Part shown: piece after piece, positions 716-60,548 of the stretch
Position numbering within the stretch: position 1 is the first letter of the stretch
How the letters are laid out: the number at the start of each line of letters is the position of its first letter
Origin: Sinohyriopsis cumingii
Taxonomy: Eukaryota > Mollusca > Bivalvia > Unionida > Unionidae
Assembly: GCA_028554795.2 (NCBI GenBank)
Contig: JAPYKE020000263.1
Coordinates: forward strand, 868,001 to 932,000
Length of the DNA: 64,000 nucleotides
Direction: 5' to 3'
Notes under the pieces: generated by a model
Told to the model about the DNA's origin: nothing
The model's database searches: none
Seen by the model: the letters and a program-made list of their open reading frames with translations, nothing else
Made by a program: the position numbers and the translations under genes

Positions 716-1276
716 ATGGATACCTGGGAACTTTATTACCTTTTGAACCACAGTTCGTATATGGCTTCTTGGAATCCTGTCGTCTGTGCTAAAGATGAAC
801 TCCCTCATCGCAAACCTCAAGACCATCTAGCTTATGTCATCAACACGGACGACAGTCATCTCCCAGGAACCCACTGGGTAGCCGTCTACTTTCCTCAAGA
901 AGGATGTGTGGAATATTTCGATTCGTATGGATTGCCTCCTTTGGAAGACGATATCATTGACTTTATGAGAAGAAATGCTCAGACCACCCAATTCAATAAT
1001 GTGAAATTACAAGGCACAGATTCCTTGGTGTGCGGACAATATTGTGTGTATTTTCTGCATCATCGCAGCCTGGGCTATTCCTTAGAACATTTAGTGACTC
1101 ATTTTGATCCTCGTTCTTCTTCTAGAAACGATGTGAAAGTAGATCAATGGTTTTGTGACCATTATGCTTATCTTTTGTCTCAAGCTAGGAAACGTAGTGT
1201 CCATCAATGGCCTAATGACTTCCAACAGTGGAAATCACAATTTCATTCACAACGTTGTCAGCCCTGTTTAAAGTAG
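716..1276 (+). CDS. PRO: adenain-type cysteine protease (virion maturation protease)
   Basis: A 186-residue protein. The open frame extends upstream to 632, but the first good ATG is at 716 (AAAACATGG context). Catalytic motifs of the adenovirus/Polinton protease family are visible: GTHWVAVYF with the His (about residue 55), EYFDSYG with the acidic residue (about 74), and LQGTDSLVCGQYCVYFL with the Gln and, seven residues later, the nucleophile Cys. This order and spacing match the C5/adenain family, which cleaves capsid and core precursors in the particle. The frame is intact. It lies downstream of the capsid-type tail and the HPSQ protein on the same strand. A canonical AATAAA follows at 1368, so this gene appears to use ordinary polyadenylation, in contrast to the two genes after it. 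A similar but much shorter protease sits in the Polinton at 44410-44748. Confidence 0.85.
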   Translation: MDTWELYYLLNHSSYMASWNPVVCAKDELPHRKPQDHLAYVINTDDSHLPGTHWVAVYFPQEGCVEYFDSYGLPPLEDDIIDFMRRNAQTTQFNNVKLQGTDSLVCGQYCVYFLHHRSLGYSLEHLVTHFDPRSSSRNDVKVDQWFCDHYAYLLSQARKRSVHQWPNDFQQWKSQFHSQRCQPCLK

Positions 1277-1367: not shown

Positions 1368-1373
1368 AATAAA
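1368..1373 (+). terminator. poly(A) signal of the protease gene
   Basis: AATAAA about 92 bases downstream of the protease stop codon, in an A/T-rich, GT-rich context (TGTTGTG follows), as expected for a normal cleavage/polyadenylation site. The 1277-1500 spacer holds no other recognisable gene. Confidence 0.5.
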
Positions 1374-1969: not shown

Positions 1970-2160
1970 CAAAAAAAACAGCCCTTTTCAGGGCTACCCA
2001 ATACTCTAGAAAAGAAATAACAATCGATTTGCCAATGTATGTATGTAGAGTAGTGTGAATATGAACACTGACTCTTTTTTTATAGTGTGAGTGTATGCAT
2101 TTGTGTATAGGATTGTGTGTTTGTAAGTGCTCACGTACGTTTGTGTGGATAGTAGATTAA
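1970..2160 (+). repeat. downstream flank repeated at 2770-2945
   Basis: The stem-loop and about 150 bases after it (AACAATC.ATTTGCCAATGT, GTAGAGTAGTGTGAATAT, ACACTGACTC..., GGATAGTAGAT) are nearly identical to 2770-2945. Together with the shared upstream module this shows that a whole transcription unit was duplicated, with the coding part diverging most. Confidence 0.75.
1980..2016 (+). terminator. histone-type 3' stem-loop and HDE-like element
   Basis: AGCCCTTTTCAGGGCT at 1980-1995 forms a perfect 6-bp stem with the TTTC loop of the replication-dependent histone mRNA 3' end. It is preceded by AACAAAAAAAAC and followed by ACCCA, then by the purine-rich GAAAAGAAAT about 15 bases on, where the U7-binding histone downstream element normally lies. 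It begins 28 bases after the called stop codon and 17 bases after the alternative-frame stop. No AATAAA lies between the gene and this site. Confidence 0.8.
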
Positions 2161-2977: not shown

Positions 2978-3200
2978 GATTGGCTTTCAGCATTAAGATA
3001 TTAGTGTTAGTACTGGTCGGTCTGGTATCAGTATAATGGTATAATGTGACTGGGTGGGACATGAAACTACTTGTCTTCGGCATGATGCCCCATTGCTAGA
3101 CATCACTCAAAACTGCCACACTGCAGACATCGTAGCTATATGACTGAACAGTTTTTAAAGCTTGGTTAAAAATCCAAATCACACGGATACACACACGCCT
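2978..3200 (+). mobile_element. SINE 3' fragment (tRNA-derived family seen in full at 27283)
   Basis: Starts at CAGCATTAAGA and runs through ...TGACTGGGTGGGACAT..., GATGCCCCA, GACATCGTAG to a CACACGGATACACACAC tail. The tRNA-like head is missing. It directly abuts the end of the adintovirus-like sequence, so it may mark the right edge of that element or a later break. Confidence 0.75.
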
Positions 3201-6629: not shown

Positions 6630-6928
6630 GACCACTCCGGTGGCCTAATGGTCAGAGAGTCCGCCTCGGATGCGGGAGGTCGTTGGCTCGTACTCCGGCC
6701 GAGTCATACAAAAGACATAAAAATGGTACTAACAGCTGCCTCGCTTGGCGCTCAGCATTAAGAGGTTGCTGTTAGGACTGATCGGCCTGGTGTCAGGATA
6801 ATGTGACTGGGTGGGACATCATGCTACATGTCTGCGGCATGATGCCCCAGTGCTAGACATCACTATAAACGTTCACACTGCAGACATCGTAGCGATATGA
6901 CTGAATTTGTTTATACAGCTACGTTAAA
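6630..6928 (+). mobile_element. tRNA-derived SINE, near full length
   Basis: The head carries pol III internal promoter boxes in a diverged tRNA-like part (GTGGCCTAATGGTCAGAGAG as A box, then CGTTGGCTCGTACTCC in place of the B box). The body and the tail CAGCTACGTTAAACACAC match the copy at 27283. A CA then TA microsatellite follows (6929-6990). Confidence 0.8.
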
Positions 6929-6946
6929 CACACACACACACACACT

Positions 6947-6994
<48 letters not shown>

Positions 6995-13995: not shown

Positions 13996-14222
13996 CGGAT
14001 GCGGGAGGTCGTGGGTTCGATCCCCGGCCGAGTCATACCAAAGACTTACAAAAATGGAACTAACTTCTGCCTCGCTTGGCTCTCAGCATTAAGAGGTTAG
14101 TGTTAGGACTGGTCGGCCTGGTGTCAGGATAATGTGACTGGGTGGGACATCATGCTACATGTCTGCTGCATGATGCCCCAGTGCTAGACATCACTATAAA
14201 CTGCCACACTGCAGACATCGTA
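13996..14222 (+). mobile_element. SINE fragment lacking the 5' head
   Basis: Begins inside the tRNA-like part (CGGATGCGGGAGGTCGTGGG, with a good B box GGTTCGATCCCC) and runs to GCAGACATCGTA, where the 3' tail is lost. Same family as 6630 and 27283. Confidence 0.8.
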
Positions 14223-27282: not shown

Positions 27283-27602
27283 GACCGTTCCAGTGGCCTA
27301 GTGGTTAGAGCGTCCGCCTCGGATGCGGGAGGTCGTGGGTTTCGATCCCTGGCCGAGTCATACCAAAGACTTACAAAAATGGTACTAACAGCTGCCTCGC
27401 TTGGCGGTCAGCATTAAGAGGTTAGTGTTAGGACTGGTCGGCCCAGTGTCAGGATAATGTGACTGGGTGGGACATCATGCTACATGTCTGTGGCATGATG
27501 CTCCAGTGCTAGAGATCACTATAAACTGCCACATTGCAGACATCGTAGCGATATGACTGAAAAATTATTAAAGCTACGTTAAAAATCCAAATCACACACA
27601 CA
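27283..27602 (+). mobile_element. full-length tRNA-derived SINE with target duplication
   Basis: Flanked by CTAAACACTTTT at 27271-27282 and again at 27603-27614, a clear 12-bp target duplication. The head has a good A box (GTGGCCTAGTGGTTAGAGCG) and B box (GTCGTGGGTTTCGATCCC, one inserted T). The body is shared with the copies at 2978, 6630 and 13996. The tail GCTACGTTAAAAATCCAAA ends in a (CA)n run. This is the reference copy for the family in this window. Confidence 0.9.
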
Positions 27603-32220: not shown

Positions 32221-33676
32221 ATGACTAGTTGCAAGTGTAAATCCCTGATGTTAGCTCAGAGGTTTGAGGTCATAAAATGTGTTGAGAACAACAAGAACAA
32301 GGAGAAGGTCACTGAAGACTGGCAAAATAACAGCAATCCTTCTCAGAAGCGCAAACGAGGTGGCAAGTCTGAAGAAGTTGAAGAAGCGCTGTTACAATGG
32401 TTCGCTCAAGCTCGCAGTCGACATTCCGACAAGTGGACCACTGTTGCTTGAAAAAGCTAATCAGTTGGCAAATGGCTCGGGTTTGCATGATTTCAAACCA
32501 ACAAATGGATGGCTGGAAAGATGGAAAATGCGCAACAGAATTCTATTTAAATGACAATACGGTGAAAAACAGGATGCAGACGACTTTGGAGCTGAGCGAT
32601 GGGTAATTAATGTTCTACCCGAAATCCTTAAAGACTACTAACCAAAAGACATCTTCAATGCCGATGAAACTGGGTTGTAATGGCAGGCGTTATCTTTTAG
32701 GACTTTGTCTTTCAAAGGAGCAGAAGCACTGGGATGTAAGATTGCCAAAGATCGTTTGACAATTTTGCTTGCATGCAATATGGATGGTAGCGAAAAATTG
32801 GATGCCTTGGTGATTGGCAAAAACAAATCCCCTCGATGTTTTAAAAATTTGAAAAAGCTGCCAGTACAGTACAAGGCAAACAGATACGTCTGGATGACAA
32901 CAGAAATTTGGAAGAGATGGCTGAAGCACATTGACAATCAAATGCGTTTGCAAAAGAGAAGCATCATTATGCTGTGCGATAATTGTGCAGCTCACGGCGA
33001 CGGTATCAAACTGTCAAATGTTAAGATTGTTTTCCTACCTCCGAACACACCTTCTCTGATTTAACCAATGGATCAAGGAATTATAGCGAATTTCAAGAAG
33101 TTCTATAGATCGCTTGTTGTTCGAAAACGGTTGTCAGACACTGATGGATCATCTCCCGAAGAAAAAGCGTCCAGCCAGACAAGGAAGCTGACAGTTTTAG
33201 ATGCACTTCATATGATTAGAAATGCCTGGAGCAATGTAACACAGTCAACCGTAGCAAACTGCTATAGGCAGGCCAGTTTGTCGGTGCCTTCTGATGACGA
33301 GTCACTTGATGACCCAAACTATATCGGCAAAACCCCATTCAAAACGCCACAGGGCATGAATGTAGAAGAATTTGAACAATATGTTGCAATAGATGACTGT
33401 CTTCAGACAGAAGGTGAAATCGACGATTCAACCATCGTTGCAGCTCTTACAGAGACAAAGCAAGAAGAAAATGACGAAAGAAGTGATGACGACGCAGTAG
33501 ATGACCAGGTTTCATCTAAAGTCGCTATTCAGTCACTCCGGAATTTACGCAGATTCATGGAACAGAGAGAATGTGAGCTGTTCGAACCATTTTACAAAAT
33601 AGAGTTGGCAATTCACCAACTTATTAGTAAAACTTGTGTACAGACATCAATTGCTGACTTTGTTCGGAAATCGTAA
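32221..33676 (+). pseudogene. Tigger-type transposase pseudogene
   Basis: The N-terminal frame 32221-32451 has the CENP-B/psq-like helix-turn-helix (LMLAQRFEVIKCVE, then an RGGKSEEVEEALLQWFAQ second domain). The frame shifts at about 32445. The DDE domain follows in 32640-33676: FNADETG (first Asp), RLTILLACNMDGSEK, IIMLCDNCAAH (second Asp) and FLPPNTPSLI with the third acidic position near MDQGII; a TAA at 33062-33064 interrupts exactly before PMDQG. After it 33068-33676 is open and encodes the usual acidic C-terminal tail. At least one frameshift and two or more stops make it inactive. Confidence 0.85.
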
Positions 33677-33925
33677 ATTTCATTGTGTTTGATTTAACAA
33701 TATGACGTTAGTGCTGTTCATTGTGGACTCTTGTTTCATTTAAGTGAACGTTGAAAGAATGGATTCTATCATCTTTATACGTTATTCTTCACCTATATTC
33801 GTGCCGTGCTGATTTAAAGCTGTACTGTACTGTACTTCGGTTAACTGCACACTCCGTTTAACTGCACAGTCTCGTGATGTGCCCGAGGCTGTGCAGTTAA
33901 TCGGAGTCGACTGTATATATATATA

Positions 33926-34173
33926 AGCAGCAGGGAAGTTTAACAGACCTTTGTGTTTCGCCAAAATAAACCTTCCTACGCGAACTTTCTCCGTAGAAGC
34001 CTCAGAATTCAAAAATAAAGCCTTCTACGTGAGCTAATTTTCATGCATTTCAAACCAAGTGCATCGAATTGGTCGCGCCGGTGTGTTAGTAAATATAGTG
34101 TTCGAGACAGGAAAAATAAAATTTAGGGATAAGTTTTTGTGTTAATTTTTTTGTTGCAACTTGGGGCTGCTTT
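33926..34173 (+). repeat. left terminal inverted repeat of the Polinton
   Basis: Starts AGCAGCAGGGAAG; pairs with 51154-51401. Differences are one base near 34082 (G/A), one near 34100 (T/C), and a short diverged patch close to the inner end. Confidence 0.95.
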
Positions 34174-34174
34174 T

Positions 34175-34825
34175 TCATGAATAAATTTGATCAAGACCAA
34201 TTCGATACCGACTTCGTGGATCGTGAAGATTTATCGTAATAAAACCATGTTGCGTTGCCTGAGCGCGGCTGAACAAATTTTTAAACTTATTTATATCCAT
34301 GTCGCCGTTACACCAAGTCTGATGAATATTTCTCAGCGTGTGCGTGTCTACGCCATTGAAGACAGATAAAATATTACAATTGTCCCTAATCACCTTTGGA
34401 ATCTGCGTATATCTCTGTGTTACGTAAATAACATCGGTGTTCTTGTGTCTGCCACACGAGAATATCCTAGCCGGGTTGGTCTGCTTGTCCAGCATAACAT
34501 CATCGAAAACAACAAGATTATTAACATTGCCGTCCAAATTCTCCACGGATGGAGCTTCATTGATATCTGTGATGAATTCGATTGTGCCTTCGTCGGTATT
34601 GTTGCTGAATTCTTTTAACACTTGATAACAACGCTGATCATCAACGGATGGTGCAACCAAATACAATTTGTCCCATTTTAGCCATCGCATGATCAAATTC
34701 AATAACAATTGTGTCTTACCAGATCCTGACGGGCCAATGATTATCATTCTAATCGAATTCGGTAATGCCGCATGATGTTTTACCTGCTCGCGTCGTTTCG
34801 TGGCTGAAAAATCAATTACATTCAT
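34175..34825 (-). CDS. virion DNA-packaging ATPase (FtsK/HerA, A32-like)
   Basis: A 216-residue protein. The open frame extends upstream to 35182, but the conserved family start and the opposing gene at 34839 point to ATG 34825. Walker A is IIIGPSGSGKTQLL (about residues 29-41) and Walker B is LVVFDDVML (about 112-120), followed by NPARIFSCGRHKNTDVIYV and TQR, the arginine-finger/sensor region of the A32-like branch. These enzymes pump DNA into preformed capsids. The frame is intact. It ends within two bases of the terminal inverted repeat, and is divergent from the PLA2-like gene with only 13 bases between the start codons, so both promoters must overlap or be very short. A decayed relative with the same NPARIFS words lies at 57241-57838. 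Confidence 0.9.
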   Translation of the reverse strand: MNVIDFSATKRREQVKHHAALPNSIRMIIIGPSGSGKTQLLLNLIMRWLKWDKLYLVAPSVDDQRCYQVLKEFSNNTDEGTIEFITDINEAPSVENLDGNVNNLVVFDDVMLDKQTNPARIFSCGRHKNTDVIYVTQRYTQIPKVIRDNCNILSVFNGVDTHTLRNIHQTWCNGDMDINKFKNLFSRAQATQHGFITINLHDPRSRYRIGLDQIYS

Positions 34826-34838
34826 GTTACTAGAATAC

Positions 34839-35347
34839 ATGGATCTATATTGTGTTAAGTGTCGCAAGCACACAGCTACGATAAATCCAACCGAAATCGT
34901 TACACGCAACAACAGGAACGCAATTGCAGGAGAATGTGAAGTTTGTAAGACGCGCAAGTTCAGATTTGTAAAAAAAAAAACTAGAAGAACCGGAGGAGAT
35001 ATCGCAGCCTCCTTGTCAAATCTACCCGGAACTCCCTGGGCAAAATATCCCGGAGAAAGCATCTGCCAGGATACAATTATTGTGGACCCGGAACGAGGCT
35101 CGATATCAGACTCGACGATAATGACCAACCAAAACAAGGTGAAGATCCGGTAAACGCAATCGATAACGCTTGTTACTATCACGACCTTGCGTATCGCAGC
35201 GGAGATTTACAACAAAGACATCTCGCTGATATCAAGCTAATTCACGCATTAGACGCGATTCCTGACAAAAGTTTCAAAGAGAAATTAGCAACATGGGTGG
35301 TAAAAGGCGCGATGAAAGGTAAATTAGTACTCGGTGCTGGTAAATAA
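34839..35347 (+). pseudogene. zinc-ribbon plus PLA2-like minor virion protein, frameshifted
   Basis: Starts at ATG 34839. Residues 1-45 form a small Cys4 ribbon (YCVKCRKH ... CEVCKTRK) of the type annotated DUF5679 in Polinton and giant-virus proteins. A G-rich hinge follows, then, in a different frame, a parvovirus-like phospholipase A2 domain: a GPGT calcium-loop motif at about 35088-35099 and the catalytic YYHDLAY near 35173-35193, ending at TAA 35345-35347. The frames are joined by a one-base indel at about 35050-35056. In related viruses this activity helps particles cross endosomal membranes. The gene overlaps nothing; the integrase starts two bases after it. An A11 run at 34970-34981 is a second fragile spot but is in frame. 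Confidence 0.8.
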
Positions 35348-35348
35348 T

Positions 35349-36299
35349 ATGGAGCAAATATATTATTCTCCGCGAGGATTTTGGCGAGGAAAATCAGCAA
35401 TTGCCAAACTCGCCAAAGCCGCTAAAGTAAAACAATCCGTCGCTGAATCGTGGCTATCGAAACAGGCAATTTGGCAAATATATCTCCCTCTGCCTAAGAA
35501 AATACCGTATGCGAGTTTCACCGTCAGCATTCCTAATGAGGTCCATCAAGCGGATCTTATGTTTCTTCCTCACGATACCGTTGACGGAGTCACATATAAA
35601 TATGTCCTGACAGTCGTTGATATCGCTAGCAGGTATAAAGAAGCGGAGCCGTTATCGAATAAAACAGCAACAGAAATTGCAAAGGCATTTAACGAAATTT
35701 ACTCACGATCCCCGTTGACATGGCCGAATCTTCTCCAGGTTGATCCGGGTCGAGAATTTCTTGGCGCGGTTACTTCATTGATGAAAAAAAATAATGTGAA
35801 AATCCGACGCGGTATCGTAGGTGTTCATCATAATCAAGCTATCGTCGAAAGATTCAATAAAACTCTCGCAGAACGATTATTCGGATACCAATACGCGCGT
35901 GAATTTATTCAGGATAATCGGTCTCATGATTGGGTATCAAGATTGCCTCATGTAATTAACGCGCTAAATAACGAGACAACTCGAACAATAGCAATGAAGC
36001 CTGCAATTGCAATTACAAAATCGAATATACCCCTAAAGCGAGATTCCACAATTCAACCTGTACTAGGTAGCGTCACAGTCAGATATTTATATAAAGAAGG
36101 CGAGGCTGAAGGAGGCAGAAAAAGAGCAACCGACCCAACCTGGAGTGTTACAACACACAAAATATCCGCCGTGACAAGATCGTCAGGAAGACCAGTGATT
36201 TATATCCTAGATTCGTTAGCGCCTCAACGCGGATTTACCAAGGAAGAATTACAAATAGTACCAGAAGATACTCAACTACCGCCAGCATCACTGATGTAA
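35349..36299 (+). CDS. IN: Polinton rve-family integrase
   Basis: 316 residues from ATG 35349 (open frame to 35334; ATAATATG context). An N-terminal helical region (residues 10-45, SAIAKLAKAAKVKQSVAESW) is the usual zinc/HTH-like part without an obvious HHCC. The catalytic core shows VHQADLMFL (first Asp, about 68), LQVDPGREFLG (second Asp, about 131) and HNQAIVERFN (Glu, 35 positions on), a DDE set of retroviral/Polinton type. The C-terminal part (residues 235-305, GSVTVRYLY and WSVTTHKISAV) looks like the SH3/chromo-like DNA-binding region. It inserts the linear element into the host genome. The frame is intact and it is convergent with the polymerase-helicase gene, whose stop lies 28 bases inside it. 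Confidence 0.92.
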   Translation: MEQIYYSPRGFWRGKSAIAKLAKAAKVKQSVAESWLSKQAIWQIYLPLPKKIPYASFTVSIPNEVHQADLMFLPHDTVDGVTYKYVLTVVDIASRYKEAEPLSNKTATEIAKAFNEIYSRSPLTWPNLLQVDPGREFLGAVTSLMKKNNVKIRRGIVGVHHNQAIVERFNKTLAERLFGYQYAREFIQDNRSHDWVSRLPHVINALNNETTRTIAMKPAIAITKSNIPLKRDSTIQPVLGSVTVRYLYKEGEAEGGRKRATDPTWSVTTHKISAVTRSSGRPVIYILDSLAPQRGFTKEELQIVPEDTQLPPASLM

Positions 36300-39292
36300 T
36301 TTACTCGAATTCGTCCTAGTTGGGATAATTTTCTTAATCTCGACACGGCTAAATATACCAAATTTGACCAAGATATTCTGTCATCGACGATCCAAACTTG
36401 TCCATCTACGGTTAATCCTTGTGACAAGTGTATCGTTGTTGTGTAGCCTAATTTCCACGGTGATTTTTCTGCATTTATCGCGTCATTAACAAGATTAATA
36501 TCAACAAAGATAATATCATTTAGGACCAAAATCTTTTCCTCTCCGCATGGCAAAATAATATTAATATTTTGTCGCCTAGTATTAGCGGGCCTATAACATA
36601 ACGGTACCTGCAGCGTTGGAAATTTCTCGCAATGCAGCTTGAATAACATTTCCTGAATAATATCACGAATAATTTTCCTACTAGCAACGATCAGATGATC
36701 GGGACGCCACAAATTTAGAAAATCGCTCATCGGGGTCTCGTCGATTATTTTTCTCATGACGTCACATTGAATCTTATTCGGTTGTAGTCGAATTAATTTT
36801 TTGAATTCGGTCAACAAAATATCTGTAGATCTATAATCAGCGTCAATTTCCTCGTAATAATCAACGAAGTTTCTGAGCCATTCGTGAGGAGATTCGCCAT
36901 CAATAGGATTAGGTTGGCCATGATCTCCGCACATTATCACAACGGTATTTTTCCCTTCCAACCAAGTCAAGATCGATTTTAATATATCTAAATTCACCGT
37001 GCAAATCTCATCAAATATAATGATCTTGTTGATATATTTGTCTCCCATACGAACCGAGTCCCATGATCCACCGCTGTATTTGAAATAACTGTGATACGTG
37101 CACGAATTAACGCCACGCTGCTTTATTTCTCGCGCTAATCTATGCGTCGGAGTCAACACAATCATATCGGAGTTCGCAAATAAGTTTATTACTCGCGTTG
37201 TTTTACCGCTACCTCCAGGCCCATTTAGGTAAACAAATTTGCTGCGTGAAATTGGATCGAACGCAGATGCTGCTGCCGAAGATTCCATCGAAGATTCTCC
37301 AAATTTACCTCGGTGGAATTCATTGCGATCTTCAACATCGGCGTCTTCGCAATAATCTAGAATATTCTCGTTTTTTATCCTCCAAGTTCCCCATGAACTA
37401 CCATCGGTGATTAAATTTTCCAGCCTACACTGGTATTTTTTATCGATATAGAACGAATCCGTCGCGACTCTTACCGCGATATCAGAAAATTTGTTTATCA
37501 TCGACAATAAATTTATACTAACATAAGCGAGCATCGATGATCGTAAATGTGTATATTGTGCTGATTCTCCATCAAGGTAACTAATCACGGTACCTAACTT
37601 TACTCCATCAATCATAATATTCTCTCTGTTGCAAAATATTCCTCGTGATACCGTATCGGCGATTATAAAATTCATCTCGGCGTCGTTGATAAATAATCTA
37701 GCGTGCCGGTGTTTATGATCAACGGATCCACCTTGAGTAAATTTACCGATTATTTTTCTTCCTATATCTTTCGCGTTGTCACAATCCGTCGGTAGCCACA
37801 CCTCGATCTGTTTCCTATACGATATAATCACCTCACTCACTGTCAACGACACTAACATCGACGAATCTAGCATATATCTTAATAACACTGTAGGAACCCA
37901 ACGGCGCTGAGATAAATGTCTGCCAAACCAAATGTAGCAAATTTTATGTAAATTTTCAGCAAACTCAAACGAAGTAACAAAAGCGAATTCGGTCATGACA
38001 AAATCAGGCAACGGTCCGTTAATTGCTACTCTTGTCATCTCGCTGGTAGGATGGCCGAATTTAGCAAAATAATCTGCACAATCGCCATATCCAAGAAAAC
38101 TTCCAGGATAACACGCGCTCATGTCAACAGAAATCATATCTTCGAAATCGTACTTGGTATTCCACAATCCGCCATGGCCATACTCGATACAGCTAAGTTG
38201 AATATCAGCGAGAAATTCGTTCCTCGTAGGCTTCCACGAGTTATTCTCTCTAGCGGCGTGAGCGGCCACAGACGGAACTGTAAAGCAATTCGTTAGTAAC
38301 TGATCGGGATTCGACGAATATTTTACCGCAAGTTTTTTCATCGACTCGTGTAATATTTCGTCTCTGTAAATATCACCGCATGGCAAAATAAATTGATCGT
38401 ATCTTTCTTCTCTCGAGAACAACCATATCGATATTGGATCAGATGCGCTTAATTTTTTGATAAATCTAAACATGGCATCGGAATTATTATTCTCAATATC
38501 CGCCGTGGAAAATTCCGCAGATTTATTATCTGTGGGATAAAATTTGACAATACGATCCCGTGGAAATATCATTACTGATTGCGACCACGCGTGGGAATTG
38601 TGATCGACAATCTCGATTGGTGCCCCTCTGGATCTATACGGCGACGAGTATAATATTTCTCCCGATAACGTTTTCACCGTAATAGGAAATTTAAGTTTTT
38701 TGCTCAGCACAGCTAAATCGTCCACCGATGCACCATCAGCAACGGTCTTCGCCCACGCGTTAATTTTATCCAACCTCAACTGGGTCAAACCAGATCCACG
38801 TCGAGCGTTTTTCATATGCTCGATTACGCGCTCAGCCACGCAATTTATCATCGGTGATTCTTTCATCGCAGGTAGGTTTTTCACATCCGGGTTGTTATTT
38901 AGTCGATAAATTCCATAAACAACAGCGCTGGCTGGATAGGATCTAGCGTAATAAGGGCCATCGATTCCAAGTAATAATCCGGGTTTAGAATTCTTATCAA
39001 GAACAACGTTTTTCTTACCGCCACGCACTGGATCTCGTTTATCGCGAATGATCCAGGTATCGTCGGGCATTTGTGCGATAAATTTTATTCCAAAGATAAA
39101 TCGCTCTTCTTTATGCTCGGTTTTTATGTGCTCGATTATTTTCTTGGCTCGTTCCAGATTCATCGTAGCATCAACAGAGTTCGTTTTCCAAGTCGACCAA
39201 GTGTGAATTGCTCCGTCGTCGAAGAATTCTTTCTTCGCTCGGTCAACTTCAGGTATAATATATTCTGCCTCATCAAGATCAAACGCATCCAT
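36272..39292 (-). CDS. B-family DNA polymerase fused to superfamily 1 helicase
   Basis: 1006 residues, one intact frame. The N-terminal two thirds are polymerase-like: SVDMSACYPGSF (motif A, about residue 390) and VRVATDSFYID (motif C, about 608), where the usual YxDTDS has Ala for the first Asp but keeps the second, metal-binding one. No clear motif B was found. The exonuclease motifs are not clear either. The C-terminal third is an SF1 helicase: LNGPGGSGKTTR (Walker A, about 690), TPTHRLAREIK, IIIFDEICTV (about 758), CGDHGQPNPI, DYRSTD, and TIHLSQGLTVDG with AVSRLRKL near the end. A helicase joined to a degenerate PolB was described as a signature of Polintons, polinton-like viruses, Tlr1 and transpovirons (Krupovic, Yutin and Koonin 2016). 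From memory, the words around residues 145-240 resemble proteins abundant in Rhizophagus fungi; this is unverified. Role: replication of the element. Confidence 0.9.
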   Translation of the reverse strand: MDAFDLDEAEYIIPEVDRAKKEFFDDGAIHTWSTWKTNSVDATMNLERAKKIIEHIKTEHKEERFIFGIKFIAQMPDDTWIIRDKRDPVRGGKKNVVLDKNSKPGLLLGIDGPYYARSYPASAVVYGIYRLNNNPDVKNLPAMKESPMINCVAERVIEHMKNARRGSGLTQLRLDKINAWAKTVADGASVDDLAVLSKKLKFPITVKTLSGEILYSSPYRSRGAPIEIVDHNSHAWSQSVMIFPRDRIVKFYPTDNKSAEFSTADIENNNSDAMFRFIKKLSASDPISIWLFSREERYDQFILPCGDIYRDEILHESMKKLAVKYSSNPDQLLTNCFTVPSVAAHAARENNSWKPTRNEFLADIQLSCIEYGHGGLWNTKYDFEDMISVDMSACYPGSFLGYGDCADYFAKFGHPTSEMTRVAINGPLPDFVMTEFAFVTSFEFAENLHKICYIWFGRHLSQRRWVPTVLLRYMLDSSMLVSLTVSEVIISYRKQIEVWLPTDCDNAKDIGRKIIGKFTQGGSVDHKHRHARLFINDAEMNFIIADTVSRGIFCNRENIMIDGVKLGTVISYLDGESAQYTHLRSSMLAYVSINLLSMINKFSDIAVRVATDSFYIDKKYQCRLENLITDGSSWGTWRIKNENILDYCEDADVEDRNEFHRGKFGESSMESSAAASAFDPISRSKFVYLNGPGGSGKTTRVINLFANSDMIVLTPTHRLAREIKQRGVNSCTYHSYFKYSGGSWDSVRMGDKYINKIIIFDEICTVNLDILKSILTWLEGKNTVVIMCGDHGQPNPIDGESPHEWLRNFVDYYEEIDADYRSTDILLTEFKKLIRLQPNKIQCDVMRKIIDETPMSDFLNLWRPDHLIVASRKIIRDIIQEMLFKLHCEKFPTLQVPLCYRPANTRRQNINIILPCGEEKILVLNDIIFVDINLVNDAINAEKSPWKLGYTTTIHLSQGLTVDGQVWIVDDRISWSNLVYLAVSRLRKLSQLGRIRVNYISDAGGS

Positions 39293-39327
39293 CGATTATA
39301 TTTTAGACAAATGTTTAAATTATAATA
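39293..39327. promoter_or_regulatory. short divergent promoter of polymerase and zinc-protein genes
   Basis: Only 35 A/T-rich bases separate the two start codons; the words TATATTTTAG and TTTAAATTATAATAATG could serve as AT-rich promoter elements on either strand. Confidence 0.4.
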
Positions 39328-39618
39328 ATGAGTAAATGCAAGTGGATATTAATTGGTTCAACAAAATTCTGTGATAAATCTTGTAGAGGCGATTATTGTG
39401 GCGCTCATAAACATGCGATTCGACGTGGCAGTAAAGGACCACAGCGATGTTTAGTTTGTCAAGTTGGCACGCGAGGAAAAACTCGGTTGTGTTTGGCCTG
39501 CGGAGGAAAGAATTATCGGGAATTGCGGCGATATTATGAAAAAAGATCCTCGTCGGTGATAACATGTGAAGAAGATTATAGTAATCGATTCAAGGCAAAT
39601 AACGATTTAGACATATAA
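39328..39618 (+). CDS. small zinc-binding protein of Polintons, unknown function
   Basis: Ninety-six residues from ATG 39328 (ATAATAATG context). Cys/His pairs are arranged as FCDKSC...YCGAH at residues 15-27 and CLVCQVGTR...LCLACGG at 42-60, suggesting two zinc-binding knuckles; the rest is basic with an acidic tail. Proteins with this two-part zinc pattern occur beside PolB-helicase genes in related elements, from memory. It may bind nucleic acid, but no function is known to me. It is divergent from the polymerase gene and is followed 10 bases later by the HNH gene. Confidence 0.7.
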   Translation: MSKCKWILIGSTKFCDKSCRGDYCGAHKHAIRRGSKGPQRCLVCQVGTRGKTRLCLACGGKNYRELRRYYEKRSSSVITCEEDYSNRFKANNDLDI

Positions 39619-39628
39619 TTATTATATA

Positions 39629-40186
39629 ATGAACTTGAAATCAGTGATTCCAGAAACAACAATGACATGCGAGTTTAAATCTCATCCAACGATCGAGGGA
39701 TACGAGGCGTCATCGGATGGTGTTGTCAGACATATCAAAACGAAGAAACATGTTGGTAGAGTTGGCAATTCGGGTTATTTGATATGTACCTTCAGCGGGG
39801 GTAGAAAAGGAAGATACACAAATTATACCCTTCATAGATTTGTGTTCGAGTGTTTTCACGGACCAATAAAAGTCAGTCTTGTTATCGATCACATCGACGG
39901 AGATAAACTTAACAACAAACTGTCCAATCTTCGCGCGGTAACTCCGAGTGAAAATTCCAAATTTGGTAATGCCGGTGGCGTACGGTGACCAGCTAAGGCA
40001 GTTAAATCAATAAATAAAGAAACAAATGAAGAAATCATATTCACATCGATGAATGCCGCTGCAAGGTACTTTGGTATTCACATGGTCTCGGTGCGACGTG
40101 CAACAGAAAAAATAATCAACGCGACATTTTCCTATCGATTTGGTGAATGGATCGAGTTTTCTTATATTCCGATAATTTCAGACTAA
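39629..40186 (+). pseudogene. HNH homing-endonuclease-like gene (NUMOD4-HNH-NUMOD1) with a nonsense codon
   Basis: From ATG 39629 the frame encodes a NUMOD4-like start (TIEGYEASSDGVVRHIKT, residues 21-38) and an HNH_3 nuclease core (LHRFVFECFHGP, IDHIDGDKLNNKLSNLRAV), then meets TGA at 39986-39988 directly after GGVR. The same frame stays open to TAA 40184-40186 and encodes a NUMOD1-like recognition segment (FTSMNAAARYFGI...VSVRRA), so a single nonsense change, probably CGA to TGA, is the break. Such nucleases are typical of phage and giant-virus homing elements; here it is free-standing between the zinc protein and an unknown gene, so it could be a captured homing gene. Without the C terminus the nuclease core could still fold. 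Confidence 0.85.
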
Positions 40187-40250
40187 AAATAAGGAATCGG
40201 AGATTCTTCAGGATTTTCTAAAAATTAATTAAATATTACAAATTTGTATA

Positions 40251-40637
40251 ATGAACGAGAAGAATATAAATAACATCATCGAGGCCATCGAGGATTTAAA
40301 AACTAAAAATGTAAATTTATCCTCAGATTTGGACACAGGTAAAATCCGGTCCGAATTTGAGACGATCGTCCAAGGAAAACTCGAATACAGATACACGCTA
40401 CCGTCAGAATATAAATTCATAAAGAAAATCCAGATTGCCATGTACCAATCGCTTGCGTCTGTCAGCGATGATCAAATCGAGAATTTTGTTAAATTATCGA
40501 CGCTGGTAGAAAAAGTTACGTCGAGTTTATCTGACGAATATGAGTCAAGAAAAATTACCAGCTCGCGCGTTAGGCAGCTAAAAAAGCTGGTCGATGAAAG
40601 TAAAATCAAAGATTCTGAAGATTCTCAAAATTCTTAA
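40251..40637 (+). CDS. small helical protein of unknown function
   Basis: 128 residues, intact, starting at ATG 40251 after TTTGTATA. It is predicted mostly helical and charged, with EDLKTKN, EYKFIKKIQIAMYQSL and RQLKKLVDES segments; no Cys, no membrane segment. It lies downstream of the HNH gene on the same strand and convergent with the penton-like gene. I do not recognise the family; a DNA-binding or scaffold role is possible but not shown. Confidence 0.65.
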   Translation: MNEKNINNIIEAIEDLKTKNVNLSSDLDTGKIRSEFETIVQGKLEYRYTLPSEYKFIKKIQIAMYQSLASVSDDQIENFVKLSTLVEKVTSSLSDEYESRKITSSRVRQLKKLVDESKIKDSEDSQNS

Positions 40638-41116
40638 AAATTTCTATCAACAAAAAAAAACAAATTTTTTTTTTTTTTTTTTAATATTTTACTGAAATTG
40701 CACAATTTTCTTATTTCTGACTACCATTTACCCCAGCAGATTTACTAAATTATATAAATTGCACAATTTGTTGGGTATTTACCCCATCAAAAACATAAAA
40801 TTACACAAATTTCTTAATTTCAAGAATCTCCGATTCTAAATTTTATTATTTTTTTTTATTATTTACTAAATTAATTTATTTACTGAAATGGTACAATTTT
40901 CTTAATTTTGACAGGTATTTACCCCATCAAAAACATAAAATTATATAAATTACTCAATTTGACGGGTATTTACCCCAACAAATTTACGAAATTATATAAA
41001 TTACTCAATTTGACGGGTATTTACCCCATCAAAATTAAAAAAATTTACTAATTTTGAAAAATTTCCTGGTTTTTGGCCATTTTTCTTTGGCGGATAGATT
41101 CAAAAATCTTCGATTT
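40638..41116. repeat. AT-rich intergenic region with palindromic iterons
   Basis: The region between two convergent genes holds five copies of a GGTATTTACCCC box, centred at about 40729 (degenerate), 40778, 40918, 40969 and 41019. GGGTA-TT-TACCC is itself a palindrome. The last two copies sit in a 50-bp direct repeat (AAATTATATAAATTACTCAA, then TTTGACGGGTATTTACCCCA). Poly-A and poly-T runs occur at 40651-40682. Candidates are an origin, a bidirectional terminator or a regulator-binding cluster. Confidence 0.75.
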
Positions 41117-42667
41117 TCACGATCTCACCAACAAATTGATACTCAGTGTTTCCCCGTGTATATCAAGTAAATTTCCGTTTTGATCCGTCAGTTTGAAATT
41201 TATCTTCGATAATAATCGATTGTGACATCGCAGATAAAACGGATTTACTGGCTCTTTTATTATCAAAAAACCCGGAGATGCGCTAGGTGAAAACGAATAT
41301 AAGATAAATCCCTGCTGTGCCTGCTCTGACACAGACGAATCTACGTTGTAGCTACCTTCGACGATATCCGCGTGAAGATAAATCGCGATAACTTCCGTTA
41401 TGTTAACGATACCTGGCGAGATATGCCGCCCTTGCCCGGCAGGATCATTATTGTGTTTGAGAATCGATTCTGATTGTATTTTTTTAGTCCACGCGGCATG
41501 TAATTTCGGAAATAAATCATCGATGGTATCAACGACAGATTTTCTCATTTCGTCAACATCATAATCGGGAAATTTGAAATTTGGTAGCGTTTCCTCGGTT
41601 AATCCAAATACTCTCATGAATTTTTGTTTTTCTCCTGAATTTCTGATCAACGTGAAGCTGCTAATAGGAAGAACATAATCGGCAATTGATATATCGTCGA
41701 TTATCGCCCGAATGAACATGTTGTGATAATATTCAACATCATTCGCTAGTTGATTTAAAATCTTCACGCGTTCGATAATTTCGCTACATGAACCTGATTT
41801 ATTTAAGATGCATTCATGAAAGGATTCCCGCAATAAATTTAAATGTAATTTATGTTCTTGAATAAATTCGTCGAGGGTTCTTCTTATCAAGATACCGTCT
41901 ATGGGGAATATTGTCCTGTTAATACTGGTAGCGTCGAAGATTTTCACGCCGGGGGGAATTTTAGGAAGAGGCAACCACGAGAGAATTCTTTCGTCCCTAA
42001 AAGTAAAAGCGAACATCACCAGGTTAAATTTGTGGTTATTCATGAGGTTGATGGCGCTGTGGATCAGAGGCTTGTGTTTGATATCTCCGTACCATCCTTC
42101 GTCGGTGGTAAAATCTGATTTTTTTGGCTCCGGTAGTTCTGGAGGAGCTTCTTCGTGCCAACCTGGAATAATAAAATCAGATTTTTCTGGTTTTGCCAGA
42201 GGTGTGATTTCGGGCCAACCTAGAACTGTCCTAATCGATGACTGGTAAATATCGACGATATATGGCGATTTTACTTCGATTATCGATGACAGCGTTGGTT
42301 CGTGTGCTAATATTTTTATTCCTGGCTTATCATCGCCGGTTATATTTGATATTCTACTGGTAAGTTCCTTATCGATTTGCTCAATTTCGTAACTGCCTGT
42401 TGGTATGCCAACGACGATCCAATTGGGAGTTCCATCGGGGCGGTTTTTATTGGCAAAAACAAGCGAATTATTCGATGATAATCTACCAAATGATTTCGAT
42501 CTAACATTGGGCCAGCTGTTATAGACGTGTAACTGTGACAGCGCAATTTCCTTGACGCTAATTGGTGTTGAAAAATCGATACTAAATTCCGGCTTTATTG
42601 AGCTTACCGATATTAGCGTTGTTGTCAGTGGGGTCGTGTTTGTCACGATTTGAGCTAGTTCGGACAT
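41117..42667 (-). CDS. penton-like minor capsid protein
   Basis: 516 residues, intact. The N terminus (FSIDFSTPISVKEIALSQL, then HVYNSWPNV) and the C terminus (INFKLTDQNGNLLDIHGETL) are the two conserved edges of the Polinton penton/minor capsid protein, a single jelly roll; the F-x-LTD-x2-G-x-LLD motif is especially typical. The middle is expanded by Pro-rich WPEITPLAKPEKSDFIIP and a helical insert (residues 250-390), longer than in simple pentons, so it may carry a vertex or spike insertion. It forms the fivefold vertices of the virion in the family model. Its start overlaps the end of the membrane-protein gene by 86 bases in a different frame, a very compact arrangement. Confidence 0.75.
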   Translation of the reverse strand: MSELAQIVTNTTPLTTTLISVSSIKPEFSIDFSTPISVKEIALSQLHVYNSWPNVRSKSFGRLSSNNSLVFANKNRPDGTPNWIVVGIPTGSYEIEQIDKELTSRISNITGDDKPGIKILAHEPTLSSIIEVKSPYIVDIYQSSIRTVLGWPEITPLAKPEKSDFIIPGWHEEAPPELPEPKKSDFTTDEGWYGDIKHKPLIHSAINLMNNHKFNLVMFAFTFRDERILSWLPLPKIPPGVKIFDATSINRTIFPIDGILIRRTLDEFIQEHKLHLNLLRESFHECILNKSGSCSEIIERVKILNQLANDVEYYHNMFIRAIIDDISIADYVLPISSFTLIRNSGEKQKFMRVFGLTEETLPNFKFPDYDVDEMRKSVVDTIDDLFPKLHAAWTKKIQSESILKHNNDPAGQGRHISPGIVNITEVIAIYLHADIVEGSYNVDSSVSEQAQQGFILYSFSPSASPGFLIIKEPVNPFYLRCHNRLLSKINFKLTDQNGNLLDIHGETLSINLLVRS

Positions 42668-43079
42668 TATTGATATTCACAGAAAATTCTAGATCGGATA
42701 TAACTCCGTCGTTGAGACTTTCAGAAAGCAGCGATGATAATTTCGAATACACCTCGTTGACCTGGGATAGTTTACTCGTGTACAGGAATAATTTTTCATT
42801 TGTGCATGAGGATATTTTTTTTGCGATAATATTAAGAACACCGGCGATTGTTGTTGTCGACGAGATTATTATCGTTGCTGCGATCGGCGCGATTGTTGTT
42901 ACCGCGGATAAGATTATTCCCGCACCGGCGACTATTGCACTTACCGCGTACACAGCAACATCGATGGCAACTAATCTACGCTGGTATTTCTTTATTTTTA
43001 TCTGATATTCGTCGAGGAGTTTTTTTAACGAATCCTGCCATGAATGCGCCTGATTGTATCGGTAATCCGATGCGGTCAT
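42582..43079 (-). CDS. small two-helix membrane protein
   Basis: 165 residues, intact. Residues about 40-85 are strongly hydrophobic (VAVYAVSAIVAGAGIILSAV, then IAPIAATIIISSTTTIAGVL), enough for one or two membrane helices, after a polar N-terminal helix. The C-terminal half is soluble and Ser/Asn-rich. Polinton and adenovirus cores carry membrane-active proteins, so a role in the virion or in membrane penetration is possible, but I do not recognise the family. The last 86 bases overlap the penton-like gene in another frame. Confidence 0.65.
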   Translation of the reverse strand: MTASDYRYNQAHSWQDSLKKLLDEYQIKIKKYQRRLVAIDVAVYAVSAIVAGAGIILSAVTTIAPIAATIIISSTTTIAGVLNIIAKKISSCTNEKLFLYTSKLSQVNEVYSKLSSLLSESLNDGVISDLEFSVNINNVRTSSNRDKHDPTDNNANIGKLNKAGI

Positions 43080-43091
43080 TTATTAAATTAT

Positions 43092-44417
43092 TTAATAACC
43101 AATTGATCCTCCGATTAAAAATTCGAAAATTACAAAATAGGGATGTGGTTCTGTCACGTGTCTGCCTGGTGGTGATAGCGTGAATGTATATTGGAAGAAA
43201 TCATATACGGGAAATATTAAAAATCCGGGATGATATTCAAAGAAGCCACGTCTGACAACCACATTGAAATTTACCGGGGAAATAACATATATTCGATATA
43301 TACCAAAAATTGGCGCGGTAAAGCTAAATGTGTTATTCTCGGGTGTCCATGTACCTTTTTGTGTTTGTACCACAAATGGTACATTGCAGGGAAGATTTTT
43401 TGTTTCTACCTCCGCTGGTATCGAAATACGCGCTATTATTCCAAGATTCATTGACGATATTTTTGTGTTAATATCGCTAATTTTTGCTGTTGCGTCAAGA
43501 AACTTCGCACTTAAATCTCGAATTTCTCCGTCGTACACAGATGTATCGACTTTTTGACGCGCCCATTCACGTACCATGTTAATTTCATCGTTAATTTTGG
43601 CAATATCCTCATTGATTTTTTTCGTTTTCTCGCTGAGATCGTCGTGTGATGTTTTATCGCTTTTCTGACTCATTACGGTATTTATTTCGGTAATATCATC
43701 GTTGATTTTAGTAATATCCTCGTTGATTTTTTTCTCGCTGAGATCATCGTGTGATGTTTTATCGCTTTTCTGACTCATTACGGTATTTATTTCGGTAATA
43801 TCGGCAAAAATATTAATAATATCCTCGTTGATTTTTCTTACTTTATCGCTGAGAACATCGTGCGATGCTTGATCGACTTTTTTCTTTGCTAGTTCGTTTG
43901 TGGCGGTGGAGATATTATCGACGGATGTTTTTATATCTTCCTCGATTTTTTTACTAAATTTAGCTAGGGTATCGTCGAGTTTTTTAAGATCTCTATTTAG
44001 CCCGTTTAATCTTTTTGTCAATCTTTCTTGAAGATCATCGTGTAATGTTTTATCGGCCTTCAGAAGCAACGTTGCTGATAGCTCGTTGTCCTTTTTTTCC
44101 ACATCCGCGATATTAGCCTTCAGGGGTAACTTCGCTATAATATGGGCGATATCAGCGATGGATTTTGATACCGAATCTGACAGGCTAGTAAATTGATCAA
44201 TGCGATCGTTATATTCGTCTCGCTTGATTATACCTGTTATTTTCACGTTGCTGGTTTGTAATCTCCCTTCGCGGCTCTGAAAAATAGCAACTTCGCCAGG
44301 ATCTACCTCTGATAGCGATAGAAGATTATTAATATCCTCCCTCGTGGCGAACTTTGATAGATCGACGTCGGCTACTTCCTTCTTCCTGTAGAGGAATCTC
44401 CCGTAAATATCAACCAT
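43092..44417 (-). CDS. coiled-coil fibre-like protein with C-terminal beta domain
   Basis: 441 residues, intact. The N terminus (residues 1-60) is a short attachment-like region. Residues about 75-320 are almost entirely heptad-rich helix with internal repeats: the unit ITEINTVMSQKSDKTSHDDL occurs twice, 33 residues apart, and KINEDI- and SHD-x-LSEK-like pieces occur further. Residues 325-441 are a beta-rich domain with many aromatic residues (APIFGIYRIYVISP, VYDFFQYTF), of the size and kind seen in C1q/TNF-like knobs. The layout (anchor, coiled-coil stalk, globular head) matches trimeric viral fibres and suggests host attachment. The start codon overlaps the stop of the protease gene by eight bases. 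The function is inferred from architecture only. Confidence 0.7.
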   Translation of the reverse strand: MVDIYGRFLYRKKEVADVDLSKFATREDINNLLSLSEVDPGEVAIFQSREGRLQTSNVKITGIIKRDEYNDRIDQFTSLSDSVSKSIADIAHIIAKLPLKANIADVEKKDNELSATLLLKADKTLHDDLQERLTKRLNGLNRDLKKLDDTLAKFSKKIEEDIKTSVDNISTATNELAKKKVDQASHDVLSDKVRKINEDIINIFADITEINTVMSQKSDKTSHDDLSEKKINEDITKINDDITEINTVMSQKSDKTSHDDLSEKTKKINEDIAKINDEINMVREWARQKVDTSVYDGEIRDLSAKFLDATAKISDINTKISSMNLGIIARISIPAEVETKNLPCNVPFVVQTQKGTWTPENNTFSFTAPIFGIYRIYVISPVNFNVVVRRGFFEYHPGFLIFPVYDFFQYTFTLSPPGRHVTEPHPYFVIFEFLIGGSIGY

Positions 44418-44748
44418 GATATTTATCTACGGCGTATTTAAATACGATCCTATGATACGGGTCGGATGATTTTGAAATTGCGTCGAGGACGTTAATTGAT
44501 TCTGGGCCGCATATCGGTGGATCCATTAGTGTCTGCGTCGGAAGTGTCGAATACCAAATTGGAATATTTAACTTTGACACGTAATCGATAAATTCTTTTG
44601 GTGGAGCTAGTCCGTACGAGTCAAAATAAACAACTTCGCGAGGATTAATCGCGTAGGCAACCCAGTGTGTGCCAGGGCCAGTATTTGAGTTGAGATTTAT
44701 TATTCCTGTCTCGGTGGAATTTGGTTTTTCTGGTAGTTGATCCCGCAT
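44410..44748 (-). CDS. PRO: adenain-type cysteine protease, short
   Basis: 112 residues from ATG 44748. Active-site words: GTHWVAYAI (His, about residue 27), VVYFDSYGLAPP (Asp), and Q-x7-CG in TQTLMDPPICGPES (Gln and Cys). It processes virion precursors in the family. The called start may be too late: the same frame continues upstream as FFRGVF directly before the Met, a stretch conserved in Polinton proteases, but then enters an A-rich run (A9 at about 44773) with no ATG, so either the N terminus is lost through an indel in that run or translation truly starts at this Met. The second Cys found in many relatives (CGxxC) is Ser or absent here. It overlaps the fibre gene by eight bases. Confidence 0.8.
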   Translation of the reverse strand: MRDQLPEKPNSTETGIINLNSNTGPGTHWVAYAINPREVVYFDSYGLAPPKEFIDYVSKLNIPIWYSTLPTQTLMDPPICGPESINVLDAISKSSDPYHRIVFKYAVDKYHG

Positions 44749-44802
44749 AAATACGCCTCTGAAAAATTTTATATTTTTTTTTCTTTGCTTCGCTTGACAA
44801 TT

Positions 44803-45261
44803 CTAAATTTGAATAGGGCGCGCTAATCTTAGGCCGGATCCGTACGGGGGGCGTCTTAGATAAAGGCCGCTTCCCTTTTTTTTACCATATCGCCCTCCCA
44901 TTACTTTGTGTACTAGTTTGTCGCCTACAGCTCCGGCCGCACCTAATCCTATCGCTTTTGCAATTGCCGGAAGAGCCCTGGATAATAATCCAGGAATAGC
45001 GGCTAGGAAAGGGAAAATTCCGCCCGTTTTGACCATGTCTCTGATGGCACCTATACTAAGATTCACATGAACGCCGGAATTCGCTGATTTGGCTTTGGTG
45101 AATCGTTCACGTTGACCCCTAGTTAGCGATAGTTTGTTAGGCCCACCATGAATTTGGTCATTTTTCAGGGTTAATTTCACACCGCATCGCTTTGCTGTTG
45201 CTGTTTGGAGTTTTTTCATCTGACCCGGGGTCAGAGTTACGCTGACGTGTTCGTATGGCAT
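44803..45261 (-). CDS. small basic virion protein with hydrophobic segment (adenovirus pX-like)
   Basis: 152 residues, intact. The N-terminal 80 residues are basic and contain SVTLTPGQMKKLQTA and KLSLTRGQRERFTKAKS, two similar 'LT.GQ' repeats. A hydrophobic Gly/Ala-rich segment follows (residues 80-115, GIFPFLAAIPGLLSRALPAI, GLGAAGAVG), then a basic Gly-rich tail. Small basic proteins with an amphipathic or hydrophobic stretch are found in Polinton and adenovirus virions, where they condense DNA or disrupt membranes. It sits between the major capsid gene and the protease. The identification is by composition and position. Confidence 0.7.
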   Translation of the reverse strand: MPYEHVSVTLTPGQMKKLQTATAKRCGVKLTLKNDQIHGGPNKLSLTRGQRERFTKAKSANSGVHVNLSIGAIRDMVKTGGIFPFLAAIPGLLSRALPAIAKAIGLGAAGAVGDKLVHKVMGGRYGKKKGSGLYLRRPPYGSGLRLARPIQI

Positions 45262-45330
45262 ATTAATAATCGTTTAATCTAAATTTAGAAATCTTAAAAA
45301 TCTTAAAAATCTTCAATTTTCATTTTAAAG

Positions 45331-46749: not shown

Positions 46750-46764
46750 TTATTAATAAGAAAT

Positions 46765-47214
46765 TTATCTAAAATGAAGACCGCTACCCGATATGAAGCT
46801 TGTGTTTGCGACTTCCTGTGCTAGATTTGTGTTAGCAACTTCCTGTGCTAGCTCATTTATTTTTTTATTTGCTGCGTCGTTTATAGCTTTACTGACCTCG
46901 GGGGGCATTTCGCTGGTGCTAGGTAATTTGACAGGCTGCTTTTTTTTGCGCATTAAATTTGATATTTTACCTTTGACAAAATCGAAGCCTTTAGTGGCCA
47001 AATTACCAACACCAGAGATGACAGTCTTGCCAATCTTTCCTATTGCCTTTGATGCGATTTGCTTAGCTGCGGGTCCGATTTTAGGGACTACCCGCGTGAC
47101 AAAGCTTCCAACGATGTCGCCGAGTCCGTTACCGTGAATATATTTATATACAGGCAATCGAGAGTTAACTATGCGGACCTGTCTAGGTCTGCGCTGATGT
47201 TTGTGAACAATCAT
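46765..47214 (-). CDS. small basic virion-type protein with internal repeat
   Basis: 149 residues, intact. The basic N terminus (VHKHQRRPRQVRI) is followed by a Gly/Ile/Lys-rich amphipathic stretch (residues 30-80: VGSFVTRVVPKIGPAAKQIA) that could interact with membranes or DNA, then a KKKQPVKLP hinge. Near the C terminus LAQEVANT occurs twice in tandem, a 24-base duplication in the DNA at about 46795-46850. By place (just upstream of the major capsid gene on the same strand) and composition it is probably a minor core or pVI-like protein. I do not recognise it with certainty. Confidence 0.65.
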   Translation of the reverse strand: MIVHKHQRRPRQVRIVNSRLPVYKYIHGNGLGDIVGSFVTRVVPKIGPAAKQIASKAIGKIGKTVISGVGNLATKGFDFVKGKISNLMRKKKQPVKLPSTSEMPPEVSKAINDAANKKINELAQEVANTNLAQEVANTSFISGSGLHFR

Positions 47215-60251: not shown

Positions 60252-60291
60252 AAGGTCTTTTCGAGACCTATGAGTGGCCCTGAAAAGGGTC
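60252..60291 (-). terminator. histone-type 3' stem-loop, minus strand
   Basis: On the minus strand GACCCTTTTCAGGGCC (60291-60276) has a TTTC loop and a stem with one A/C mismatch, followed by ACTCA and then CTCGAAAAGACC about 13 bases on, at the HDE position. It lies 13 bases after the TAA of the minus-strand remnant gene. Confidence 0.65.
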
Positions 60292-60303: not shown

Positions 60304-60548
60304 TTAATATACCCTTAATATTAACATAAAGGGCATCTGTGAGATCTTCTTCTCAAGCTGCTCCTGACTGCAGGGCCATATTCTATTACTCTCTTTAGGC
60401 ATCCTTGCCTCTCCACATATATTCTCCTTATCCACAGGCTGGTGTCTGTCCTGTGGACAACTGTCCACTTGGATCAGACATACATTGGTATGTCTGTCCG
60501 GAGCATCATGGAAGACACAAGAGTTGATGATTGCATGTCGGTCCACAT
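60304..60548 (-). pseudogene. remnant of a small stem-loop gene with TATA box
   Basis: A minus-strand TATAAAT at 60601-60595 is followed by ATG at 60548, about 50 bases on, the spacing seen for the genes at 1593, 2452 and 61516. From that ATG the frame stops after 24 codons. Another frame is open to TAA at 60304, ending in QEQLEKKISQMPFM, and has several Cys/His (CSRHPQH, INSCVFHD), but has no ATG. A frameshift near the start is likely. Upstream on this strand GGATTGGTCAATG (about 60651-60639) contains an inverted CCAAT box like those of histone promoters. The family is not recognised. Confidence 0.4.

Follow-up and report, generated by a model that had tools for sequence, protein, structure and literature searches.

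The signals described here most closely resemble the 3' ends of replication-dependent histone mRNAs (Rfam RF00032; SLBP, U7 snRNP), and the DNA that carries them most closely resembles the Polinton/Maverick elements and the adintoviruses. A 6-bp stem, a UUUC loop, an ACCCA-type flank and a purine HDE 13-14 nt from the stem are common to the histone mRNAs and the present locus, which differs in that the signal follows non-histone genes of a mobile element. Likewise, the locus is comparable to Polintons and adintoviruses in possessing an adenain gene preceded by a capsid gene, an order also seen in the tubeworm-derived contig L006, and polymerase-like pieces in a second copy, and is distinguished from them by histone-type promoters and 3' ends on its small genes. 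Another link between an animal DNA virus and histones is seen in the adomaviruses, for which one study, with one clam dataset included, describes histone-like genes ("Histoid") (PMC11071296); as described there, these viruses encode a histone-like protein, whereas the present element appears to use the regulatory signals of histone genes instead. The preliminary description of this locus knew of no such 3' ends in adintovirus-like elements, and we likewise found no report of histone-type ends in Polintons or adintoviruses in the open-licence PubMed Central literature.

The window, by which we mean the whole stretch of 64,000 nucleotides analysed here, begins within one copy of the element. Its first 180 nucleotides (1-180, + strand) encode the final 59 residues of a protein cut by the window start, which match, at 41% identity (E 6e-12), the C-terminus of the L006 ORF adjoining adenain, which we take to be the capsid protein. 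The L006 contig itself (1-3607) is filed under a tubeworm endosymbiont bacterium and carries adintovirus-like capsid, adenain and polymerase-like ORFs; it is probably host DNA rather than bacterial. The adenain-like protease of the window (716-1276, +) is recognized by comparison of a family profile with the adenoviral proteinase (E 1.8e-6), its match to Pfam Peptidase_C5 (E 0.018) being below the Pfam cut-off. No hairpin follows this gene; in its place stands a poly(A)-type signal, the AATAAA at 1368-1373 (+), and an AATAAA or ATTAAA lies in the same interval between adenain and the next gene, 215-228 nt before the ATG of the latter, in 30 of 30 copies. That next gene, sg1 (1593-1952, +; 119 aa), is matched in the genome at least 150 times, at 97-100% identity, and is taken as a real gene because nine homologues retain 71-83% identity over residues 1-70, most of them stopping at the same place. 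It is followed by sg2 (2452-2691, +), which locus comparison shows to be shorter in the window (79 aa) than in several other copies.

The right end of the window (60-64 kb) contains a broken second copy of the element. Locus comparison identifies in it remnants of sg4 (60366-60548, -; residues 1-61 of 77) and sg5 (60683-60814, +; residues 146-190 of 190), which are accompanied by a zinc-knuckle gene (61100-61516, -; Pfam zf-CCHC, E 1.1e-11), an ORF of 119 residues, ORF119 (61647-62006, +), and three polymerase-like pieces in broken frames (62487-63643, +), one of which gives a weak match to DNA_pol_B_2 (E 0.042, below the cut-off). By the hairpin scan neither the zinc-knuckle gene nor ORF119 of this broken copy is followed by a hairpin. 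Pfam detects no histone domain in the small proteins of the element. Judging by its genes, the element is a Polinton/adintovirus-like family scattered through the genome.

The intervening DNA contains other mobile sequences. A second, different Polinton-like element occupies 33000-47200, with a helicase-domain ORF (36272-39292, -; Pfam AAA_19, E 3e-9) and integrase-, capsid- and protease-like ORFs recognized by eye; no gathering-level Histone3 match was found in it (33-47 kb). A long intact ORF on the minus strand (48318-49988, 556 aa) has, by eye, the look of a piggyBac-type transposase. Copies of a short repeat are present at 2980-3184, 6745-6953, 14076-14222 and 27401-27597, the first directly after the last unit of the left element.

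Beginning 27 nt past the stop of sg1, the sequence reads AGCCCT-TTTC-AGGGCT (1980-1995, +), then ACCCA (1996-2000), and then, 13 nt past the stem, the purine-rich HDE GAAAAGAAAT (2009-2018), as the preliminary description had it. Based on PMC7026596, the ACCCA flank is the expected cleavage region. The hairpin is recovered by both a pattern scan and the Rfam Histone3 model, its score of 31.0 bits (E 6e-6 when 6 kb are searched) being below the curated cut-off of 34 bits, as is that of the paralogous sg2 unit (31.1 bits at 2775), in which the pattern scan also finds the hairpin (2780-2795, +) and the same GAAAAGAAAT 13 nt past the stem (2809-2818). The sole gathering-level match in the window (60834; 37.2 bits) is the perfect hairpin of sg5 (60839-60854, +), with the HDE GAAAAGAGAT again 13 nt past the stem (60868-60877), and other copies of the family score up to 45.6 bits. 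A fourth site, detected by the pattern scan at 60291 on the minus strand, is the hairpin of sg4 (60276-60291), with one stem mismatch and the HDE GAAAAGACCT (60253-60262, -). The window thus holds four histone-type sites, at 1980 (+), 2780 (+), 60839 (+) and 60291 (-). Folding of the four corresponding 46-nt stretches predicts the canonical hairpin in three (-9, -9 and -17.6 kcal/mol) and a different lowest-energy fold for the 60291 stretch. The sequence common to the two left units, sg1 and sg2, is limited to 40 nt of promoter (85%) and 189 nt on the 3' side (82%), and between the left and the right element only the hairpin-HDE stretches, of approximately 46-56 nt, can be aligned. The HDE of sg5 lies within a small predicted hairpin of its own (60855-60879), of the UCUC-GAAAA-GAGA type, which sg1 and sg2 lack; such a structure, as modeled, could either hide the HDE from U7 or present it to U7.

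The absence of AATAAA after sg1, also claimed in the preliminary description, stands in part: the hairpin does come right after the stop, but an AATAAA is present at 2254-2259, 301 nt past the stop, and therefore poly(A) signals are not wholly lacking after sg1.

The host's own histone genes provide the yardstick for these signals. They form tandem H3-H4-H2B-H2A-H1 repeats, and a first look at the genome yielded 662 histone-fold candidates, 150 of which were scored. The repeats (L045, L046) are about 8.3 kb long, with all five genes in one orientation, and occur on numerous small contigs as well as on contig C14. The named relatives of the host's histone H1 are molluscs, mostly bivalves, and the host is thus probably a mollusc. 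In the two stretches read, their hairpins have the form GGCCCT-TTT[T/C/A]-AGGGCC, with GGTCCT-TTTC-AGGACC in H1, and all hairpins of the quintet score above the Rfam Histone3 cut-off. GAAAAG is found 13, 13, 13, 14 and 14 nt past the stem in the five genes, and CTAGAAAAGA in four of them; the HDE of the element's sg1 reads CTAGAAAAGAAAT. The hairpin, the GAAAAG core and the spacing of 13-14 nt past the stem are thus the same in the element and in host H3, H4, H2B, H2A and H1, which bears out the view that the element carries the 3' end type of replication-dependent histone genes. Differences are seen in the basal stem pair, A-U in sg1 and sg2 as opposed to G-C in the host genes, and the flank, ACCCA in the former and ACACA, ACAAA, ATACA or ACTTT in the latter. 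A search of the host genome with the U7 snRNA model (RF00066) gave no match at E 0.001 among the 65 candidates scored out of 801,960, nor did the control give any; a pattern search for U7 gave 43 matches versus 80 in the control, its best candidate being weak. That candidate (L095), which has the right anti-HDE letters, is not convincing as U7 in view of its weak 3' hairpin and of the three extra matching letters, which are expected in about 0.7 of 43 matches. For mollusc HDEs, the literature searched offers a treatment of Lucina histones, without usable HDE letters.

A search of the genome with the Histone3 model yielded at least 75 scored matches on many contigs (best 45.6 bits), and all of the 26 loci read from these 75 proved to be copies of one Polinton/adintovirus-like family. 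The hairpins in them follow five gene types, sg1, sg2, sg3 (in two unrelated-looking variants), sg4 and sg5, each of which ends in a hairpin of histone type, mostly followed by ACCCA, and in a purine HDE like that of the host in core and spacing. The preliminary description had missed four further gene types with hairpins of their own, and also the shared histone promoter boxes. A hairpin scan of related copies shows the hairpins recurring after the same small genes: across the 26 loci and the window, 54 of 54 hairpins with at most one mismatch (45 perfect) lie on the sense strand after sg1-sg5, and 53 have [GA]AAAAG 13 nt past the stem. The anchor hairpins are not independent evidence because each of the 26 loci was chosen for one strong hairpin; the neighbouring units, in loci chosen by another hairpin, provide a fair test. 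Among these, a recognizable hairpin and HDE are present in 12 of 12 sg2 units (9 perfect) and 13 of 14 sg5 units (9 perfect), the exception (L051) being a truncated sg5 without a hairpin. One sg4 anchor hairpin (L008) is without an HDE. The hairpin signal is kept after sg2-sg5 though their proteins differ widely between loci. Beyond these five types, no hairpin was found within 300 nt after any of eight genes (three zinc-knuckle, four ORF119 and one adenain).

At the scale of the whole 2.9-Gb genome, the pattern GCCCTTTTCAGGGCYACCCAN{6,10}GAAAAGA occurs 27,547 times in exact form (13,604 + 13,943), and its reversal, the control, does not occur; none of the five host histone hairpins fits the forward pattern. 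By extrapolation from the 26 loci, all 27,547 matches would be copies of the element. The same counts led us to reject a chance hairpin, as did the near absence of comparable sequences from IMG/VR, where GYYCTTTTCAGRRCNACYCA has one match and GGYYCTTTTCAGRRCCAC three, none of the four loci with a Histone3 match; the sole GYYCTTTTCAGRRCNACYCA match in all of IMG/VR lies inside a phage reading frame. A histone pseudogene was also rejected, given that the genes before the hairpins are not histones and that the canonical histone repeats lie elsewhere. The spacing of hairpins on contig C1 suggests that the elements are roughly 13-18 kb long. At two loci (L054, L061) the outer units of two copies are about 1.1 kb apart, as if elements had been inserted side by side or joined end to end.

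Thirty genomic copies of sg1, fetched by protein and not by hairpin, bear on the concern, raised in the preliminary description, that related elements might lack the stem-loop at this place. A recognizable hairpin is present just after the stop in all 30: 27 are perfect, one has a single mismatch and two are damaged. The hairpin scan is passed by 28 of the 30 copies (27 perfect), with the hairpin 26-37 nt past the stop, and finds no hairpin in the 1.5 kb upstream of sg1 in any copy. At these 30 loci, the perfect hairpins of sg1 and sg2 have the HDE at 13 nt in 41 cases and at 14 nt in 12. The adenain-bearing relatives L005 and L006 count against the preliminary interpretation. A single-sequence search of IMG/VR with adenain returned no relative, and an alignment search returned only L005 in IMG/VR (24% identity) and L006 in the genome collection (40%); in these two, the sole adenain-bearing relatives with DNA at hand, there is no Histone3 match.

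The comparison of the 30 sg1 copies also points to constraint on the signals. Variable sites number 5 of 39 from hairpin to HDE. The proportion is higher in the interval separating the stop from the hairpin (12 of 27; p 0.009) and in the downstream flank (40 of 94; p 0.001), and the excess at four-fold sites is borderline (11 of 34; p 0.053). Since the 30 copies are related to one another and have the highest similarity among the 150 scored, these p-values are only a guide. The spacer and GAAAAGA are invariant in all 30. Divergence amounts to 4-6% at third codon positions and in the flanks and to 1% from hairpin to HDE, and the second codon positions of sg1 are almost invariant. In a set of 20 hand-picked element and host hairpins, two of the six stem pairs change on both sides, with two cells unpaired.

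The resemblance to histone genes is not limited to the 3' ends: at their start sg1-sg3 carry a promoter box that host H2B and H1 likewise possess, and a stretch of the H4 promoter is present in sg2 besides. The box of sg1, GATGTTTTCCTTCACGTCCGCGC (1504-1526, +), is one letter off the host H2B box. Upstream of sg2 are 21 nt identical to the host H4 promoter (2305-2325, +), 24 nt identical to the host H2B promoter (2367-2390, +), and a TATA-like TATAAAT (2396-2402, +) followed by TTCATTCG (2433-2440), both of the latter being also present in host H2B. The 24-nt GATGTTTTCCATCACGTCCGCGCT is common to sg2, both sg3 variants and the host H2B promoter. In 300 mononucleotide shuffles of sg2, the longest match to host histone promoters does not exceed 16 nt (mean 9.6), and it is 9 nt for the region upstream of adenain. 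The promoters of sg4 and sg5 lack the box and have at most 10 nt in common with host histone promoters; CCAAT boxes are present in them, as in H3. Genome-wide, the GATGTTTTCNNTCACGTCCGCGC box has 31,228 matches, a count that includes host H2B and H1, versus none for the control. For 38 of the 66 boxes listed on contig C1, an exact hairpin follows on the same strand at a distance of no more than 1.5 kb, as against 0.7 expected by chance, and the remaining 28 have no hairpin near; none has a hairpin on the opposite strand only.

The signals are thus present in the DNA, in the order and with the match to the host signals described, and they recur after unrelated genes. Very probably, the element family relies, for its set of small genes, on these host-type signals of histone expression, and the reading that best accounts for the signals is that the element borrowed them from the histone genes of its host. 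Other readings accept the same signals and assign them a different role. The hairpin could have come along with histone regulatory DNA and be vestigial, or one of two alternative ends, while the functional mRNA end, at any rate outside S phase, would be a poly(A) site farther downstream. In favour of such a reading, 18 of the 30 copies have an AATAAA past the hairpin, 107-130 nt from the stop of sg1, so that the contrast with adenain is not strict; 3 copies have one farther off, and in the window it lies at 301 nt. The reading is nevertheless unlikely, since 9 copies have no AATAAA within 900 nt and since the hairpin and HDE vary less than their flanks and recur after unrelated genes. At a position some 109 nt from the sg1 stop, the copies (L065-L094) have either AATAAA or other letters, and a possible explanation for this AATAAA is that it serves as an optional poly(A) fallback. 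A decoy function, in which the main effect of the hairpins would be to bind SLBP or the U7 snRNP and so divert the histone mRNA machinery, with expression of the small proteins secondary, would fit the several hairpins per element and the 27,547 patterns set against the 662 first-look histone-fold candidates. This we regard as decidedly unlikely: the small proteins are conserved, with second codon positions almost invariant, and the units therefore look like genes.

The apparent conservation of the signals could also be a mere consequence of the youth of neutral copies, given that the proteins of the 150 sg1 matches scored show 97-100% identity; the excess of divergence at third codon positions and in the flanks over that from hairpin to HDE, and the persistence of the hairpin signal after sg2-sg5 despite their widely differing proteins, render this very improbable. 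Lowest in probability, and scarcely credible in our view, is a signal acting at the level of DNA, with the hairpins belonging to the end repeats of the element and serving integration or replication rather than RNA processing. It draws on the likeness of the outermost units beyond the hairpin, and is countered by the internal position of the sg1, sg2 and sg5 hairpins, their sense orientation to a gene in 54 of 54 cases, the equality of HDE core and spacing with host histone genes, and the covariation of the stem pairs.

If the histone signals were indeed borrowed, the mRNAs of the small genes would probably be non-polyadenylated S-phase transcripts processed by SLBP and U7. In such a scheme, transcription would start from the histone-type promoter box, the transcripts would be bound by host SLBP, and the HDE would be paired by host U7 snRNA; cleavage a few bases past the hairpin would then leave an end without a poly(A) tail, and both production and retention of the transcripts would fall largely within S phase, which would time the small and perhaps early proteins to host DNA synthesis. 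Extending this, we tentatively propose, with somewhat less than even confidence, that the element has adopted the replication-dependent histone programme (promoter box, SLBP hairpin and U7-type HDE) for several unrelated small genes. Since its copies may number in the tens of thousands and its hairpins tens of times the host histone genes, it might then track S phase and at the same time draw on the histone mRNA machinery in competition with the histone genes.

Should this reading be correct, there would be non-histone mobile-element mRNAs ending in a histone hairpin, and SLBP and the U7 snRNP would have, in a DNA-virus-like element, a second and independent user. That sg1-sg5 might escape ordinary sequencing of poly(A)-selected RNA would then be understandable as well. 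The small genes would offer natural non-histone substrates for asking what histone signals do. On the whole, the arrangement would suggest a way in which an integrated virus may tie its genes to the replication of host DNA.
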